Of a stretch of DNA of 53,141 bases, positions 5,911 through 47,940 are shown in pieces. Under the pieces are notes generated by a model. It ran no database searches. It saw only the letters and a list, made by a program, of their open reading frames with translations, and was not told the origin of the DNA. A program made the translations under genes and the position numbers. Source of the DNA: Rhodospirillaceae bacterium MC! (GTDB taxonomy: Bacteria > Pseudomonadota > Alphaproteobacteria > MC1); assembly GCA_002632265.1 (NCBI GenBank), contig NQOV01000013.1:1-53141 (forward strand), given 5' to 3'. Each line of letters begins with the position of its first letter. Position 1 is the stretch's first letter.

Positions 5911-7113
5911 CTAGATACAATTAAATAGGCGTTGGATGTTAGGTAAGTCGAGTAATTTTTTGTTGGGGTTGAAGTGGCCGTAGGGGATTCGTAGGACACG
6001 GCGGCCGGCGGTGCCGTAGACTTCGCCTTCGGTGGATACCCATTGGCTTAGGTGGGCTTTGTCGCCACCGATGTATGCCCAATCTCCTTCTAGGAATTGG
6101 GGGTTGGGGAAGTTGTTGAGTTTTATGGTTGTGTAATCCATACTCACAGTACCAACTATAGGGGCGGGTTTGCCTTTTACTATGACGTGGGGATTTTCGT
6201 TATCGGCTTGGATTTTTTTCATGATACCATCGGCATAACCGAAAGAGACAGTGCCGATCCATTCTTGATCATCTTGAGCTAAATATGTGGCGTCATAGCC
6301 TACGGATTCGCCTTTATTTAGTTGTTTTACCGAGATAATTCTTGCAAATAACTCAACGGCTAGCTTAAGATTTACTTTATCTAAAATGGGCTTTAGGGAG
6401 TTTGCTCTATTGTATAAGCCGATCCCTGTACGGATGAAATCATAATAATAATCTTCACCTAGTAATAAGCCGTCTGTTGCAGAAAGGGAAAGTTTAGCTT
6501 GTTTATAGTCGAGAATTTCCACCATTTTATCGAAATTAGCTTTCTGCTCTTTATTTTTTGGAAAGTCTTTACCTTCGTCGGCACATGCCAAATGAGTCAT
6601 GATAAGTTGCACATTAAGATTATCGAACTTTTTACCAGATTTGATATCTTCCACATCTTTCATATTTAAACCAAGGCGTCCCATACCTGAATCCAATTGA
6701 ATGGCACAAGGATAATTTTCCCCTGAATTTTTCGTGTGTTCTAACCATATATCAAACTGTTTTGGAGTGTTTAATATGGGGGTTATGTTGTTATCACTAT
6801 AATAAAAGCATGTTTGTTGCTCTACAACGCCGTCAAATACGTACACTTGAGCCATACTCTCATGAAATTCTGCAAGAATACATCCTTGAGTAGCTAAAGC
6901 CTCGCTAATTGTAGCAACAAAAAACACTCTACACCCTGATTTATAGAGCGTAGGAACTACATTTTCTATACCTAAATTATAGGCATTAGCTTTCACAACT
7001 GCCGATACTCTATGATCTGTTAACTTTGTAAGTTCTTGCCAATTGTGATGAATAGCGTCCGTATCAATGAGCATTACCGCACTTGCCAATTCTGGCGTAT
7101 TATAACTTTCCAT
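5911..7113 (-). CDS. alr: Alanine racemase
   Basis: Converts L-alanine to D-alanine for peptidoglycan using PLP. The 400 residues show the PLP lysine K41 in SAVVKANAYNLG, the opposing catalytic Tyr273 in VGYDATY, RTGIGLYNR, and EWIGTVSFGYADG, which is close to the classical Geobacillus sequence. The region MDY replaces the more common MDQ or MDL near the substrate site. AAGGAAAA precedes the ATG. It lies 48 bases downstream of a diverged paralogue on the same strand, so the two are probably co-transcribed. This copy is the more canonical of the two. Confidence 0.93.
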   Translation of the reverse strand: MESYNTPELASAVMLIDTDAIHHNWQELTKLTDHRVSAVVKANAYNLGIENVVPTLYKSGCRVFFVATISEALATQGCILAEFHESMAQVYVFDGVVEQQTCFYYSDNNITPILNTPKQFDIWLEHTKNSGENYPCAIQLDSGMGRLGLNMKDVEDIKSGKKFDNLNVQLIMTHLACADEGKDFPKNKEQKANFDKMVEILDYKQAKLSLSATDGLLLGEDYYYDFIRTGIGLYNRANSLKPILDKVNLKLAVELFARIISVKQLNKGESVGYDATYLAQDDQEWIGTVSFGYADGIMKKIQADNENPHVIVKGKPAPIVGTVSMDYTTIKLNNFPNPQFLEGDWAYIGGDKAHLSQWVSTEGEVYGTAGRRVLRIPYGHFNPNKKLLDLPNIQRLFNCI

Positions 7114-7161
7114 AATATTTTCCTTTTTTGTAATGATAAATCTTGTGATTGTGAGATGATT

Positions 7162-8352
7162 CTATTTAGCTATGGATATCAAAGCCTCTTTAATATTTTT
7201 ATAGCTAAGTTTTTCTTTATCAGGATTAAAATTCCCAATATTTATCCTTGGTACTCGTGTAGATATAGTACAATATAGTTGACGTTCGTTATTCACCCAA
7301 TTACTAAGGAGAGAATTTTGATCCCCAATACACGCCCATTCATTGAGCAGTTTTTCTGGATCATGATGTTGATCAACATTCAAGACAATATAATCCATAC
7401 TAATGCGACCAGTAATCTTATAAGGCTTATTATGAATTAAAGCAAAGGGAGCGATTTTTTGCGGTTTGTCATATATTTCTCTCATCATTCCATCGGCGTA
7501 TCCCATGGCGATAGTGGCAAGATACTCATCCTTAGGAGTGGTATAAGTATCATTATAGCCAACCGTATATCCCTGTGGTAAATTCTTTATGGCGATAACT
7601 TTTGAGACCAATCGTGCCACAACCTTAAGATCATGATCATGATTATCAACTCCATTAAAGCCATATAAACCTATGCCGAATCTTACCACATCGTATCTAT
7701 ATTTATCATCGGCGAAATAGCCGTCTGTTGCACTAAGGGATTTTGTGATGTTGTGAAAGTTTAGTTTTTCGATAATCTCATCAAAATACGCCTTTTGCTC
7801 GTCGTTCTTTTTGTTGTTGCTGGCAAAGGATAAATGAGACATCACAATATCGATATTTAGATCATCTAAAAGAGATCTATCCTGATAAAGTTCTTTAACT
7901 TCGTTCGGCGACACACCATAACGACCAATTCCAGTATCAAAATGAATACCGCATGGTAATTTCTCATTCTTGTTCTGACAATACTCATTCCAAGATGAGA
8001 TCTGCGATAGGGTATTTAAAATGGGAATGAGATTATTTTCATAGAAAATATCCAGTTCCTGCTCGGATAAAATCCCATTTAAGACATAGATTTTAACATC
8101 CTCATAACGCAAAGATACAACAATCTGTATTGCCTCTAAAGCTTCCACAATACTCGCCACAAAGAAGATCCTACAACCTGATTTTAATAGGGTAGGCATG
8201 GTATTTTTAATATACAGACCGTAAGAACTCGCCTTAATTACCGCTCCTGCTGTACCGTTAAATGAATTATTTAGCCATGTCCAATTGTGGCTTAAAGCGT
8301 CTGTATCTATGAATAGATAGTTGCTTGCGTATTTTGTTTTATAGTCATTCAT
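7162..8352 (-). CDS. Alanine racemase paralogue (diverged)
   Basis: This 396-residue fold-type III PLP protein shares its plan with the downstream alr: K40 in AVIKASSYGLY, the catalytic-Tyr region TVGYNDTY, RFGIGLYGF and TIAMGYADG. The PLP lysine and Tyr are kept, so activity is likely. The loop after the lysine departs from KANAY, however, and the substrate-side motif is MDYI. It may be a second alanine racemase or act on another amino acid such as Ser or Lys. No clear ribosome binding site precedes the ATG. A heptad repeat at 8366-8407 sits just upstream, which could make its expression variable. Confidence 0.85.
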   Translation of the reverse strand: MNDYKTKYASNYLFIDTDALSHNWTWLNNSFNGTAGAVIKASSYGLYIKNTMPTLLKSGCRIFFVASIVEALEAIQIVVSLRYEDVKIYVLNGILSEQELDIFYENNLIPILNTLSQISSWNEYCQNKNEKLPCGIHFDTGIGRYGVSPNEVKELYQDRSLLDDLNIDIVMSHLSFASNNKKNDEQKAYFDEIIEKLNFHNITKSLSATDGYFADDKYRYDVVRFGIGLYGFNGVDNHDHDLKVVARLVSKVIAIKNLPQGYTVGYNDTYTTPKDEYLATIAMGYADGMMREIYDKPQKIAPFALIHNKPYKITGRISMDYIVLNVDQHHDPEKLLNEWACIGDQNSLLSNWVNNERQLYCTISTRVPRINIGNFNPDKEKLSYKNIKEALISIAK

Positions 8353-37546: not shown

Positions 37547-38119
37547 TTATTTACTTTCGCTAGGGAAATGGGCGTCTATGCTGTATTGGGCACGGTAATT
37601 ACCTTGGTTAGCAGATAGGGTTAGCCAATGTAATGCTTTTTTGTTATCGATATCTACGCCTTTACCGTTGTAGTACATAATTCCTAGATTGTTTTGAGCG
37701 TCGGCATAGCCTTGGTTAGCGGATTTTGTGTACCAGTTAAGGGCTTGTTTATAGTCTTGTTTTACCCCTTTACCGTTGTAATACATAACTCCAAGATCAT
37801 ATTGAGCAGGAGCATAGCCAAGTTTAGCAGATTTAGTATACCATTCTATGGCCTTTTGCGTATCTTCCTTTGTGGTTTCGCCATGATTGTAGAGAATTCC
37901 CAATTCGTATTGAGCTTGCACGTTATTTTTATTGGCTAATGCTTCCAAGCATGATTTTTTATTCTCGCCCTTAGTGCATGCCATAACATCTTGATCAGCT
38001 TGAGGTTTTTCGTAGGCAAGAGTCTTACCATTTGTAGCATTATCACTCTTATCTGAATTATTAGAACATGCCATTAATGGTAAAAATATCATCGATAGTG
38101 TTATTATTGATTTTTTCAT
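37547..38119 (-). CDS. Sel1-repeat lipoprotein
   Basis: The 190-residue protein starts with a lipoprotein signal whose lipobox is LMAC, making Cys18 the modified residue. It is followed by an Asn/Asp/Ser-rich linker and three Sel1-type repeats of 36 residues with the pattern AQYxLGxMYYNGKGVxxDYKxALxWYTKSANQGYA. Sel1 repeats form alpha solenoids that bind proteins; many are involved in envelope or host interaction. A related but non-lipidated Sel1 protein lies at 47131. The gene stands alone on the minus strand. Confidence 0.88.
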   Translation of the reverse strand: MKKSIITLSMIFLPLMACSNNSDKSDNATNGKTLAYEKPQADQDVMACTKGENKKSCLEALANKNNVQAQYELGILYNHGETTKEDTQKAIEWYTKSAKLGYAPAQYDLGVMYYNGKGVKQDYKQALNWYTKSANQGYADAQNNLGIMYYNGKGVDIDNKKALHWLTLSANQGNYRAQYSIDAHFPSESK

Positions 38120-41279: not shown

Positions 41280-42446
41280 ATGCAAGAACAATCAGCAAAC
41301 ACCCAAGATCAATCACAAAAACAAGAAAAACAACTAATAAATTTAATTGGTATGTCTCTTGCTGATCTGGAAAATTCCATGATAGATATGGGGGAAAAAA
41401 AATTCCGTGGCAAGCAAATCTACGGTTGGATATATCAAAAAGGAGCAAGATCCATTGATGAAATGAGTAACATATCCAAACCCTTAAGAGAAGAGCTAAA
41501 AAAGATCTTCCGTATTACTCGCCCTATCCTAGTAAAAGAACAAACATCAGTGGACGGTACTCGTAAATGGCTACTTAGAATGGAAGACGGTAACGAAATA
41601 GAAACCGTCTACATCCCACAAGCCGAAGGCAAAAATGCCATATGTATCAGTTCACAAATTGGTTGTACGCTCACATGTAAATTTTGCCATACAGGAACTC
41701 AATTGCTAGTTAGAAACCTCGAAGTTCATGAACTAATTGGACAATTTATGATAGCTCGAGATTCCTTTAACGATTGGCCCTCATCAGATCCTGAACGAAT
41801 TTTAACCAATATTGTAGTAATGGGCATGGGCGAACCTTTATATAATTACGATAACATGAAAAAAGCCATAGAAATCTTCACCGACGGATCAGCTCTCGCA
41901 ATTTCTCGCCGTCGTGTTACCCTATCCACCAGTGGAGTAGTGCCAGAAATGAAGAAAATGAGCGTAGAAATGGGATGCCAACTGGCCATAAGCCTACACG
42001 CTCCCAACGATGAAATCAGAAATCAAATCATGCCCATTAATAAAAAGTATCCCTTAAAAGAGCTTGTTGAAGTCCTAGAAAACTTCCCCAATAAAAACGC
42101 TCGCAGGATTACAGTGGAATATATTCTCATTAAAGATCTCAACGATCAAGAAAAACACGCCGACGAATTAGTCAAACTCTTAAAAAATGTCTACTGCAAA
42201 TTCAACCTAATCCCCTACAACCCATGGGACTCCTGCCCCAACAACTACCAACCACCCAGCCGTAACGCCGTTATGCGTTTCGCCAAACGCCTAAACACCC
42301 ACGGAGCAATCGCCACAATCCGAGAATCCCGTGGCGACGACATCATGGCCGCCTGCGGTCAACTCCGAAGCCAAAGCCAAAGAGTCCCCCTATATAAACA
42401 ACGAGAACAAACCCAATCCAACAACAAAAACGAAAATACAAAATAA
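41280..42446 (+). CDS. rlmN: Dual-specificity RNA methyltransferase RlmN
   Basis: A radical SAM enzyme that methylates C2 of A2503 in 23S rRNA and A37 in some tRNAs. The iron-sulfur motif is C129-x3-C133-x2-C136 in IGCTLTCKFCHTG. GMGEPLYNYDN, SLHAPNDEIRNQIMPIN and the C-terminal catalytic Cys in SRGDDIMAACGQL are present. The 388 residues include a Gln-rich N-terminal extension of about 18 residues and a polar tail. Codon choice in the last 270 bases is strongly C-rich (46 C and 14 G in 42181-42300 by hand count). Confidence 0.96.
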   Translation: MQEQSANTQDQSQKQEKQLINLIGMSLADLENSMIDMGEKKFRGKQIYGWIYQKGARSIDEMSNISKPLREELKKIFRITRPILVKEQTSVDGTRKWLLRMEDGNEIETVYIPQAEGKNAICISSQIGCTLTCKFCHTGTQLLVRNLEVHELIGQFMIARDSFNDWPSSDPERILTNIVVMGMGEPLYNYDNMKKAIEIFTDGSALAISRRRVTLSTSGVVPEMKKMSVEMGCQLAISLHAPNDEIRNQIMPINKKYPLKELVEVLENFPNKNARRITVEYILIKDLNDQEKHADELVKLLKNVYCKFNLIPYNPWDSCPNNYQPPSRNAVMRFAKRLNTHGAIATIRESRGDDIMAACGQLRSQSQRVPLYKQREQTQSNNKNENTK

Positions 42447-42479
42447 CAACAAATATATCAAGATTTTAACATTTTTTTA

Positions 42480-42509
42480 TTGACAATAAACAAAAAAATA
42501 TAATAAAAT
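42480..42509 (+). promoter_or_regulatory. Promoter of the duplicated membrane protein genes
   Basis: A consensus TTGACA (42480-42485) and TAAAAT (42504-42509) are 18 bases apart, 50 bases before the start codon. Confidence 0.5.
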
Positions 42510-42559
42510 ATATAACACTGATTATTTATATTTCTGTTGATGAAAGGGTTGTTATAGTT

Positions 42560-43462
42560 ATGTTTATGATTAAAATTAAGGATAAAGATCCGAAGTATTA
42601 TTTTACTATTATTAAAAGTGATCATCCCAACTTTAAGGTGAATGATAAAGGTGTGATACGTAATATTATTTCTGCTCCAATGTTTCCTATTTATTTGGTT
42701 ATCTGTCTGGTATGTCTTGGAATGTTTGGATTTATGGATTATAATGCTTTTTATAAATATAAATATGTATACCTTAATGTCTTTTTTAAGCAACGGGGTT
42801 TTTGGGCGATGTCGGTTGCTGGTTTTGGGTTTCTTATGACTTTGTGGTTTATGATCTATATCACTTACTATAGAAATAAAATTCAATTCCCCAGTGTGGC
42901 AGATAAGGACGGCAATTTATCTAAAAGGCTTTTTTCTCTCAATAAAATAAATATACAACCTGCAAATCAAGAACGCACCATATTTAGCGTAAATATTGAT
43001 CAAGCGGAAGTTGTCATCAAGCCCAATAATGATAAAGTTTTTGAGCTAAAAAACAGTTTTAAAGTACTTCAAAGTAATCTAGAACTCTTTAAGGTGGATA
43101 ACTATATTAAACTCAATAGCATAACACCAGCCTTTATCATATGGCGTCTGGTCATGTTTTGCTTGCTAGTGGGATTTAGCGTTTATCTAGCAAAGAATCA
43201 CGCTTTAGGTTTAACTCGATTCATACTTTATATGTGTGCATTCGCTTTAATGATCTTCACAACTGCGATGAAATTTTATCATGCTAGTAGGATCAAACTA
43301 CCATTTAGTAATCAAAGACTTCCGCTAAAATCCTTAAATTTAAAGCCTTTCAATGATGACCTTTCCCTTAAAAAATTCATCATTAATATGGGCAAATCCC
43401 AAGCGATTATCTTAGCTAGTAACGATGAAAGTTTTCAGATATTAAAAAAGTATAGCAAATAG
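42560..43462 (+). CDS. Uncharacterised membrane protein with two copies of a two-helix unit
   Basis: I do not recognise this 300-residue protein. It reads as two similar halves. The N-half has FTIIKSDHPNFKVNDKG, two membrane helices (about 40-62 and 76-98) and a soluble segment with INIQPANQERTIFSVNIDQAEVVI. The C-half has FKVDNYIKLNSITPAF, two helices (about 192-212 and 217-238) and LNLKPFNDDLSLKKFIINMG...QAIILASND. The downstream gene encodes a single unit of the same kind. GC content and codon use look like the neighbours. AAAGGG lies 15 bases upstream; an ATG at 42566 is an alternative start. Confidence 0.75.
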   Translation: MFMIKIKDKDPKYYFTIIKSDHPNFKVNDKGVIRNIISAPMFPIYLVICLVCLGMFGFMDYNAFYKYKYVYLNVFFKQRGFWAMSVAGFGFLMTLWFMIYITYYRNKIQFPSVADKDGNLSKRLFSLNKINIQPANQERTIFSVNIDQAEVVIKPNNDKVFELKNSFKVLQSNLELFKVDNYIKLNSITPAFIIWRLVMFCLLVGFSVYLAKNHALGLTRFILYMCAFALMIFTTAMKFYHASRIKLPFSNQRLPLKSLNLKPFNDDLSLKKFIINMGKSQAIILASNDESFQILKKYSK

Positions 43463-43502
43463 AATAGAATAAAATAGAATGAAATAAGGAACACCTAACC
43501 AC

Positions 43503-43973
43503 ATGATAATATTTATGAAAAACTCTTTTACAGTAGTTGAAAGCACCAACCCAGATTTTAAACTAAATACTAAATTTGCGGTATTTCCCTTAATACCTGC
43601 ATTAATGGCCATTTATATATTCTGCTTATGTTGGATATGCCAAAGCATATATTATTTTTACAGCCTAATAATCGAAGGTTATATCTCTCACAATATACCT
43701 ACCATATGTTTTTATAGTATTTTCACTCTTTTTATAGTTGGCGGAATTATTTTTGCTCTTTCCCATAAAAACCAAGTGAGATTCATACATAACGATAACA
43801 CTTTAGAAAAAACAGGATTTAAATTAAGAGATCTTAACATTCAGGCTTTAGATAATGATCTAACCCTAAAAAAATTCACTATCAATACAGATCAAACCCA
43901 AGTAGTTATCGAACCTAATAGCGATCTAGCATATAACCTACTAAAAAACAACATCCAAAAAAAAGGAGTGTGA
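43503..43973 (+). CDS. Uncharacterised membrane protein, single-unit paralogue
   Basis: This 156-residue protein matches one unit of the upstream 300-residue protein. It has FTVVESTNPDFKLNTKF (compare FTIIKSDHPNFKVNDKG), two hydrophobic helices (about 30-55 and 70-93), then LRDLNIQALDNDLTLKKFTINTDQ...VVIEPNSDLAYNLLKN, close to both soluble segments upstream. The two genes lie 40 bases apart and are probably co-transcribed. An ATG at 43515 is a possible later start. Function unknown; the conserved soluble segment after the helices is the likely working part. Confidence 0.72.
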   Translation: MIIFMKNSFTVVESTNPDFKLNTKFAVFPLIPALMAIYIFCLCWICQSIYYFYSLIIEGYISHNIPTICFYSIFTLFIVGGIIFALSHKNQVRFIHNDNTLEKTGFKLRDLNIQALDNDLTLKKFTINTDQTQVVIEPNSDLAYNLLKNNIQKKGV

Positions 43974-44031
43974 ACAAGACGTGATTCTTAAGTTTTTTTC
44001 ATAATAATATTAACAAGATAAGATTAATTTC

Positions 44032-44060
44032 TTGCAATTTAATATAATTATCTATATATT
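44032..44060 (+). promoter_or_regulatory. Promoter of degP
   Basis: TTGCAA (44032-44037) and TATATT (44055-44060) are 17 bases apart, about 65 bases before the start codon. Confidence 0.45.
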
Positions 44061-44125
44061 TAAAGCATACAGTTCTTTTTATATCTTATTCTGTTTACTA
44101 TTATATTTTAGGAGATTACAAAATT

Positions 44126-45580
44126 ATGTTTAAAAATATCATTAAAACTTCCGTCCTAGCAATGGGAATTCTAGGTGGTGCGGTGCTTATGACTACAGGA
44201 ATCACAACCAACGCTTATGCGGTTGCTACTCCTACTAGCTTTGCCCCTTTAGTTAAAAAGGTAATATCTTCAGTTGTTAATATTAGGACTGATGTAGAAA
44301 TTACTAACAATCAAAACATGAACATTCCACCAGAATTAAAAAACATGTTACCCTTTAAAATTCCTGATAAACCTCAAGTCCAAAAGGGAACTTCTTTAGG
44401 ATCTGGATTCATCATCAACGCTAGTAAAGGATACGTTGTAACCAACAACCATGTGGTAGCACATTCTAAAAAAATCACTGTGATTTTAAGTAATGGCGAT
44501 GAAATATCGGCAAGAATTAAAGGACGTGATCCTAAAACAGATCTAGCGGTCTTAGTACTAAATAAGCACAAACAACGCTTAAGCCAAGTTAACTTTGGTA
44601 ATTCGGCACAAGCACAAGTGGGCGATTGGGTTCTTGCGGTTGGTAATCCTTTTGGTTTAGGTGGCACGGTAACCGCAGGGATCATCTCGGCTCGCAATCG
44701 TGATATTCACGCAGGAAGTTACGATGATTTCATTCAAACGGATACCGCCATTAACCGTGGGAATTCGGGCGGACCGCTTTTTAATACTAAAGGCGAAGTA
44801 ATCGGCGTAAATTCTGTAATATATAGTCCTGCAGGAAATTCATCAAGTGCGGGAAGTGTGGGGATTGGCTTTGCTATCTCGTCGAATCTTGCCAAAGATA
44901 TCACAAATAAGCTCATAGCCCATGGATCTGTAGTGCGTGGATGGTTAGGTGTTACCATTACCGATGTTTCAAAAGACGAGGCCGCAGCGTTGGGATTAAG
45001 TACCAATCATGGGGCTTTGGTTAATGATGTATCGCCCAACTCTCCTGCGAGCAAAGCAGGTCTTAAAAAGACAGATGTGATTCTCTCATTTAACGGCAAG
45101 AAAATTGATAGCTCACGCCGAATTCCAACAATCGTAGCCGATACTCCCATTGGGAGAAAAGTACCAGTAATAATCTGGCGAAATGGTAAGCAGTTAACAA
45201 AATATGTAACAATTGAACTTCTTAAGCATCAAAATACCCCAACCACAACCAGACAACATCCGAATAAAAAGCAAGATTCTTCTTATGTGAAAAAGCTCGG
45301 TTTACATCTTAAGGTTTTAACCACAGCGGAAAAAAGCACTTATAATATACCGTCTAACGTCCATGGTTTGATCATTACTGCCATTGATAATAATTCCGAC
45401 GCTCAATCTAAAGGATTAGCACAAGGTTTAATTATCACACACGTAAATAATGTGCCAGTAACTAGCATTAATGATATCAACACCCAAATCAGACACGTAC
45501 AAGCTCAACACAGAAAAGCGATCATGTTAACTATCATGCTTCAAAATCAAAGCCGATTTGTAGCCTTAAAACTTAAATAA
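44126..45580 (+). CDS. degP: Periplasmic serine protease of the DegP/HtrA (Do) family
   Basis: Degrades or refolds damaged envelope proteins. The 484 residues carry a signal peptide ending near NAYA (about residue 32), a trypsin-like domain with catalytic His109 (TNNHVV), Asp139 (KTDLAVL) and Ser214 (GNSGGPL), and two PDZ domains (about 278-370 and 385-480). The two-PDZ layout fits DegP or DegQ/MucD rather than DegS. ATTTTAGGAG precedes the ATG by about 12 bases. With hflKC nearby it adds to an envelope quality-control theme. A 14-base-pair hairpin follows the gene. Confidence 0.93.
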   Translation: MFKNIIKTSVLAMGILGGAVLMTTGITTNAYAVATPTSFAPLVKKVISSVVNIRTDVEITNNQNMNIPPELKNMLPFKIPDKPQVQKGTSLGSGFIINASKGYVVTNNHVVAHSKKITVILSNGDEISARIKGRDPKTDLAVLVLNKHKQRLSQVNFGNSAQAQVGDWVLAVGNPFGLGGTVTAGIISARNRDIHAGSYDDFIQTDTAINRGNSGGPLFNTKGEVIGVNSVIYSPAGNSSSAGSVGIGFAISSNLAKDITNKLIAHGSVVRGWLGVTITDVSKDEAAALGLSTNHGALVNDVSPNSPASKAGLKKTDVILSFNGKKIDSSRRIPTIVADTPIGRKVPVIIWRNGKQLTKYVTIELLKHQNTPTTTRQHPNKKQDSSYVKKLGLHLKVLTTAEKSTYNIPSNVHGLIITAIDNNSDAQSKGLAQGLIITHVNNVPVTSINDINTQIRHVQAQHRKAIMLTIMLQNQSRFVALKLK

Positions 45581-47130: not shown

Positions 47131-47940
47131 ATGAAAATGGTTGTGAAAAATAAACAAGTCGCACTTTCATCCCAAACTCTAAGGGGTGGGAAAAGTATTA
47201 TATTAATCATGGTACTATGTAATATATTCTTGTTACCAACCATAGCCTTTTCACAATCTGACTCATATTCCGTAAATACAGAGAAAAAAGAACCAAATAC
47301 ATCCATAACAAAACTAGCCTTAAAGAATGATAAAATTGCCCAAAATAAGCTCGGAGATTTCTATGAAAATCAAGCACACCCAGATTACGAAAAGGCACTT
47401 TATTGGTATGAGAAATCCGCCAACCAAGGATACGCCCCAGCTCAATATAACTTAGCTATAATCTATGAATTCAGAAACAGACTAAATCCAGAGTATAAAA
47501 AATCATTGTATTGGCTTAAAAAATCCGTCAACCAAGGCTACGCACCAGCTCAAAATGGTTTAGGCATGCTTTATTCCATGGGGCGAGGAATTCCACAAGA
47601 TAATAAAAAGGCCTTATATTGGTTTACTAAATCCGCTAATAATGGTGGTCGCATGGGTCAATATAATTTAGCACTATCTTATAAACGTGGAGACGGAATT
47701 AAACAAGATTATAAAAAAGCATTTTATTGGTTTACCAAATCCGCTAGGCAAAACTATTCCATGGCCTATGAAGAATTGGGAAAAGCCTACCAAAACGCCA
47801 ACGGAGTAGAAAAAGATTATCTTAAAGCACTAATTATGTACTATAAAGCGTTAAAACTCGGCGATACCAACGTAACAGAATACATAGAACAAATGAATCT
47901 CGACATCATAAAAAACGCCAAAAAACAATCCCTAGAGTAA
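47131..47940 (+). CDS. Exported Sel1-repeat protein
   Basis: The 269-residue protein has an N-terminal export signal (hydrophobic core about 22-40, likely cut near AFS/QSD) and about five Sel1 repeats between residues 65 and 255. Examples are KALYWYEKSANQGYAPAQYNLA and KALYWFTKSANNGGRMGQYNLA. Unlike the Sel1 protein at 37547 it lacks a lipobox Cys. AAGGAT lies upstream of the ATG. Its stop overlaps the 3' end of convergent speE by nine bases, so no terminator separates them. Confidence 0.88.
   Translation: MKMVVKNKQVALSSQTLRGGKSIILIMVLCNIFLLPTIAFSQSDSYSVNTEKKEPNTSITKLALKNDKIAQNKLGDFYENQAHPDYEKALYWYEKSANQGYAPAQYNLAIIYEFRNRLNPEYKKSLYWLKKSVNQGYAPAQNGLGMLYSMGRGIPQDNKKALYWFTKSANNGGRMGQYNLALSYKRGDGIKQDYKKAFYWFTKSARQNYSMAYEELGKAYQNANGVEKDYLKALIMYYKALKLGDTNVTEYIEQMNLDIIKNAKKQSLE

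Follow-up and report, generated by a model that had tools for sequence, protein, structure and literature searches.

Several bacteria are known to have membrane PH proteins made of repeated modules, which in one case are reported to be needed for bacteriocin export; in the cited part of that work, YdbS has two TM segments and one PH domain, the neighbouring YdbT has six and three, and the ydbS and ydbT homologue genes are placed in one locus in the listed species (PMC8657885). The authors of the same work hold that DdE and DdF, which are YdbS/YdbT homologues, are both required for enterocin DD14 transport (PMC8657885, cited passage). In addition, the cited list of the sigma-W regulon contains ydbS-ydbT (PMC3498285). 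Xu et al. 2010 linked DUF304 and DUF1200 with bacterial PH domains, with DUF2244 as a possible further case, and described DUF2244 as having two N-terminal membrane helices, much like DUF1200 (PMC2817789). According to the cited passages of that paper, the domains are predicted to be intracellular, transporters or pores formed via PH-domain oligomers are supposed, and the membrane PH families seem to be without the first strand (PMC2817789).

Among 96 same-class genomes, a bPH_2 single-unit frame was located just before a multi-unit frame in two, with lengths of 163 and 544 aa in one (G063; two matches in the latter frame) and 170 and 661 aa in the other (G012; three matches in the latter). 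Together with the YdbS/YdbT arrangement as given in the cited part of PMC8657885, these pairs show that a membrane PH protein with repeated units is a known design. The initial annotation of the present locus had described an unrecognised family, and none of the libraries searched gave it a name, but for its architecture YdbS with one unit and YdbT with three are a known parallel (PMC8657885, cited part).

The locus studied here lies in the window, that is, the whole stretch of 53,141 nucleotides that was analyzed. ORF1 (42560-43462, plus strand; 300 aa) has four predicted membrane helices and comprises unit U1 (42560-43054, plus strand; residues 1-165), with its strand(s), membrane hairpin, and soluble segment, and unit U2 (43046-43459, plus strand; residues 163-300), which is in frame with the U1 end (ELKNSFKVLQS). 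ORF2 (43503-43973, plus strand; 156 aa), the protein used for modelling, contains the single unit U3 and is separated from ORF1 by 40 bp. The best hydropathy windows were two per unit (41-59 and 83-101 in U1, 192-210 and 215-233 in U2, 25-43 and 68-86 in U3), so that all three window units have the two membrane helices that the initial annotation had assigned to them and that are also a feature of bPH_2. The second bPH_2 feature, adjoining one-unit and multi-unit genes, was likewise found, ORF2 having one unit and ORF1 two. Similarly to YdbS/YdbT, a unit consists of a two-helix hairpin and a PH-like domain (modelled here only), and a single-unit gene stands beside a multi-unit gene; however, the cited counts are 1 plus 3 for YdbS/YdbT, in contrast to 2 plus 1 here, and the post-hairpin soluble part of the present units is ~60-70 residues (PMC8657885).

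Upstream of ORF1 is an RlmN-like gene (41280-42446, plus strand; name read from the sequence), and 152 bp downstream of ORF2 is a DegP/HtrA-type protease gene (44126-45580, plus strand; trypsin-like and PDZ domains by Pfam), which is a neighbour gene outside the repeated-unit family. No functional link was given by the neighbour genes. A promoter-like site (TTGACA-18-TAAAAT, 42480-42509, plus strand) with 11 of 12 consensus matches was located 50 bp before ORF1, but because the consensus scan found 17 such sites across the window against 11.3 (sd 3.5) in shuffles, it counts as a consensus match only. Terminator-like sites were absent from 42400-44200, which tells little since only 0.6 were expected by chance. 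A short AATAG/AATAAAATAG tandem repeat was also observed in the ORF1-ORF2 gap (43457-43487).

Relationship of the units

The division of the 300-aa protein into two units, with one more in the next gene, had been proposed in the initial annotation. BLASTP of ORF2 against ORF1 gave two separate alignments, one for each half of ORF1, the first with 27% identity over 159 columns (E 7e-15) and the other with 25% over 146 columns (E 3e-10). A fourth unit, U4, was found in contig C17 of the same genome (L002/L014, 6416-6859, minus strand); it is a single-unit protein of 147 aa with 30% identity to ORF2 (E 2.6e-11), and its gene is 84 bp before a dnaA-like gene (named by eye) on the same strand.

Smith-Waterman scores of the unit pairs were then compared with those of 1000 shuffles that kept the layout of hydrophobic and polar segments. 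The calculated z values were 7.8 for U1-U2, 14.6 for U1-U3, 11.7 for U2-U3, 8.2 for U1-U4, 7.0 for U2-U4, and 15.2 for U3-U4, and the real score was attained by 0 of 1000 shuffles in each of the six pairs. The four-unit alignment contained six invariant columns, namely, F9, S14, K20, L108, N112, and I136 in ORF2 numbering. The second codon position was the most conserved in all six unit pairs (0.52-0.61, compared to 0.35-0.47 at the third position), as for a selected protein, although base composition also contributes. The N-terminal motif strand was seen in the window units as FTIIKSDHPNFK, FKVLQSNLELFK, and FTVVESTNPDFK, and it was weaker in unit 2, as had been noticed before.

U3 was the top-scoring partner of U1 (154), U2 (113), and U4 (145), and therefore looks the least changed of the units, while the order of duplication is not derivable from four rows without an outgroup. 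The junction within ORF1 is tight, such that U1 passes directly into the KNSF that opens U2, and the same letters occur close to the beginning of U3; such a junction could result from tandem duplication in frame. At the level of sequence comparison, the duplication plus fusion of one unit, which had been proposed as a repeated event, is well supported by BLASTP, the unit alignment, and the shuffles.

Family libraries and related genomes

Searches of Pfam, NCBIfam, PHROGs, and PADLOC, in which NCBIfam was scanned with the two window proteins and Pfam also with all four units, resulted in weak scattered matches only. The lowest E was that of NF043065 to U3 (E 0.002; 18 bits, cut-off 170), and other matches were PADLOC DruE3 to U4 (E 0.0036, 12.3 bits), anchor_AmaP to ORF1 residues 44-121 (E 0.022, 14.5 bits against a cut-off of 55), and phrog_32920 to U4 (E 0.022). 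No Pfam family was shared by more than one of the four units. The searched profile libraries do not name the unit family, which the initial annotation had also left unnamed, and no strong sequence match to a characterized family with the same repetition was obtained.

A peptide search of genome contigs for the 300-aa protein gave 24 pattern stretches with no relatives among them; because it used short exact peptides, this search shows close relatives only. Among 41 genomes, we found matches in the own genome and two weak matches. The four-unit profile matched the own genome and three weak candidates (E 0.004-0.007) among 385 class genomes at E 0.01, and the own genome only among 398 phylum genomes at E 0.001, with no convincing homologue in either set; the own genome is included in both sets and is the single representative of its order in the searched set. 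No related stretch was detected among the 44 viral-contig stretches matching a single peptide pattern, and no homologue was found in plasmids and phages queried with ORF2, or in PDB sequences. An hmmsearch with the unit profile in 5810 ORFs of 80 rlmN loci gave a best E of 3.5. As far as searched, the unit family appears to be confined to one isolated lineage.

Two of the five weak matches were inspected individually. One (L005) was a one-helix protein with a SPOR-like tail by eye, and another (L010) was a permease-like protein by eye; both were taken as chance. In-frame stops were listed for the other three (L006, L008, and L009). A fifth match in the own genome (L015) contained four stops and overlapped the opposite-strand start of a Sel1-like gene, and was also taken as chance.

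Predicted fold and PH-related families

AlphaFold2 was employed on ORF2 with an alignment of three sequences (ORF2 and the two other window units), and the resulting model had a pLDDT of 66 and a pTM of 0.52, with no residues at 90 or above. The strands of this model were at residues 8-14 and 24-27, then at 91-95, 101-107, 112-115, 125-129, and 132-138, and the helices were at 33-58 and 65-87, forming the membrane hairpin, and at 141-154 at the C-terminus. The PH superfold is laid out as a seven-strand sandwich with a C-terminal helix cap, and the model has, at this pLDDT, seven strands and a terminal helix. ORF1 (300 aa) folded without an alignment gave a pLDDT of 46 and no strands, and this model was not used.

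Foldseek against the PDB returned 280 matches (E up to 10), and ~46 of the best 50 were PH-superfold domains, comprising PH, PTB, EVH1, FERM, RanBD, and similar classes, while the remainder were one unclear title and three WD-repeat, DDB1, or COPI entries. For the less obvious rows of Foldseek and VIA-align, the PH-superfold class is presumed from the titles. The best Foldseek E was 0.11, the query-length TM-scores in the best 50 were 0.16-0.31, and many alignments covered just 50-80 columns. By VIA-align, 50 of 50 among the matches listed belonged to the PH superfold, with 78-97 residues aligned and Z of 5.5-6.9, thus below 8 throughout, a range for which the tool warns that a common arrangement alone may be meant. 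The top VIA row was the eukaryotic PH domain of FAPP1 (PDB 3rcp; 85 residues aligned with Z 6.9 and rmsd 3.4), level with the rows that follow it, and it showed 6% identity to the ORF2 model, itself of modest confidence. A viral structure library gave 70 matches (E up to 10), none of them at 0.001, with the best one (0.05) to uncharacterized proteins.

Among the matches listed, the VIA alignments started at residues 1-7 and ended at residues 150-156; they begin before the hairpin, and the hairpin therefore appears to be inserted in the sandwich. In the model, the N-terminal strand probably belongs to the same domain as the post-helix segment, with the hairpin between them. The strand of the initial annotation is thus probably not an element of its own. 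Eukaryotic PH-superfold domains are not known to have a membrane hairpin within the fold. The membrane PH families of Xu et al. seemingly have no first strand in the cited description, in contrast to the ORF2 model, which has one before the hairpin (PMC2817789). A propensity measure over the four aligned units agreed with the post-hairpin model strands, and 0 of 67 circular shifts matched the real difference, although this check is not independent of the model, which was built from that very sequence. Of the seven strand segments, the first and fourth were without a strand-like moment, and the fourth and seventh did not prefer strand.

A PH-like fold with an inserted hairpin is thus proposed with modest confidence from the model, which has PH-superfold neighbours, but only at the pLDDT, Z (6.9 or lower), and E (0.11 or higher) given above. 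We estimate a probability of roughly one half that the units form a divergent, lineage-restricted family of membrane-anchored PH-like modules that was expanded through duplication and fusion. A serious alternative is a lineage-specific orphan membrane family whose soluble segment is not PH-like, so that the PH match would come from an uncertain small-protein model. This alternative would accommodate the low pLDDT of a model built from three rows, the VIA Z and Foldseek E values, the soluble part without profile support, and the second, 300-aa model without strands. Nevertheless, it has to face structural neighbours that are listed from one superfold with nearly no exception, VIA alignments that start ahead of the hairpin, and strand positions that partly agree with the propensities. 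If the fold is not PH-like, the units would be one more orphan membrane family in a little-sampled lineage.

The units could also be a highly diverged member of DUF2244, YcxB, or bPH_2 beyond profile recognition, which we regard as improbable. The HMMs of bPH_2 (PF03703, cut-off 22 bits; we take DUF304 to be its older name), DUF2244 (PF10003, 27 bits), and YcxB-like proteins (PF14317, 23.3 bits) had no match in the window proteins and the four units, and a scan of the own genome at E 0.001 gave none either; such an own genome without these families would fit a member diverged beyond recognition. DUF2244 is the nearest in length and layout as judged by eye against 28 DUF2244 proteins, with a pre-hairpin strand, a hairpin, and a beta segment of ~75 residues with a terminal helix, and the cited passage of PMC2817789 regards it as a possible PH family of bacteria. 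Similarly, a pre-hairpin segment, a hairpin, and a beta segment ending in a helix were seen by eye in five YcxB-like proteins. However, of the 28 DUF2244 proteins, 26 have by eye a GAWP motif between the helices, which is absent from all four units, and DUF2244 showed one match per frame in its loci. None of the 16 neighbour proteins of the units was matched in 30 DUF2244, 5 YcxB, and 28 bPH_2 loci (flanks of ~1.5 kb).

Profile-profile comparison (hhalign) was conducted with alignments from 28 of the 30 DUF2244 loci, where two short or weak matches were left out, and from 25 of the 28 bPH_2 loci. The DUF2244 score was the highest of the three families, but it was not significant (probability 3.5%, score 20.7; 4 of 200 segment-preserving column shuffles reached the score). 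The default alignment with DUF2244 covered 23 columns around the second helix, while a loose setting gave co-linearity over 107 columns. Comparisons with YcxB (probability 0.5%; 1 of 200 shuffles reached the score) and bPH_2 (0.4%) were also not significant, and when the comparison was confined to the soluble part, the scores were no better than those of shuffles, of which 91, 48, and 58 out of 150 reached the real score against DUF2244, YcxB, and bPH_2, respectively. This test is weak here, because a comparison of DUF2244 and bPH_2, families connected in a publication, got only 10%. Given the non-significant profile comparisons and the failed HMMs, we claim a likely resemblance to these families and not membership. 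Finally, it is hardly credible that the unit similarity arose by chance or composition among look-alike low-GC membrane proteins. Both ORFs are low in GC and membrane segments inflate similarity, but neither the result of the layout-keeping shuffles in all six pairs nor the second-codon-position conservation agrees with such an origin.

Proposed assembly and genomic surroundings

On the preferred reading of a membrane-anchored PH-like family, each unit would run from the first PH-like strand(s) into a two-helix hairpin through the membrane and back, and some five further strands with a C-terminal helix would then complete the sandwich. A single ancestral gene would have been duplicated at least three times, with two copies fused as ORF1, one remaining single beside it, and one before the dnaA-like gene. 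With two helices in every unit, orientation would be kept on fusion, and ORF1 would be a covalent pair of parallel units. The hairpin would anchor each unit in the inner membrane, with the PH-like parts together on one side. This side is probably cytoplasmic, as judged for U3 from charge and otherwise from the published prediction for related families. In U3, K+R numbered 0 in the 18 residues of the interhelix loop, and the positive-inside rule was clear for this unit only; the interhelix loops of U1, U2, and U4 (K+R 4/25, 2/10, and 4/16) were about as positive as the rest.

ORF1 and ORF2 would presumably be made together and could assemble via their PH-like domains into one inner-membrane complex. 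By analogy, we infer that such a co-assembly may serve envelope maintenance or small-molecule or peptide traffic, roles of the kind proposed for other membrane PH proteins. It is a tentative and rather doubtful proposal that the units are an independent membrane PH-like branch in one isolated alphaproteobacterial lineage, with the hairpin inside the PH fold after the first strands and with multi-unit proteins that arose, next to a single-unit partner, separately from YdbT. If it is true, the same repeat design would have evolved a second time, and an in-fold hairpin would be suggested as a common plan of the membrane PH families, which are described as being without the first strand. If confined to this lineage, such a family, in which proteins have one or two units and the single-unit member has 156 aa, would be a simple system for the question of pore or transporter assembly.

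The surroundings of the units were also surveyed. The search of genome contigs with the RlmN-like protein found 129 related stretches, in which Azospirillum led (51%) and one alphaproteobacterium was at 52%, so that the genome probably belongs to the Alphaproteobacteria. A search of the whole assembly for a 16S rRNA gene gave none. Near U4, a LOG-like protein (L014, 2845-3669; named by eye) was observed, relatives of which were present in 40 of 80 rlmN loci of other genomes, while in this genome rlmN adjoins U1-U3. Divergent from U4 is a weakly squalene/phytoene-synthase-like protein (L014, 6965-7927; 24.1 bits against a Pfam cut-off of 26). Two Sel1-repeat proteins in the window (37547-38119 and 47131-47940) were confirmed by Pfam, and a third was recognized by eye elsewhere in the same genome (L015, 1694-2521). 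Two tandem alanine-racemase-like genes (5911-8352, minus strand; 400 and 396 aa, names read from the sequence) are apparently another local duplication in the window.
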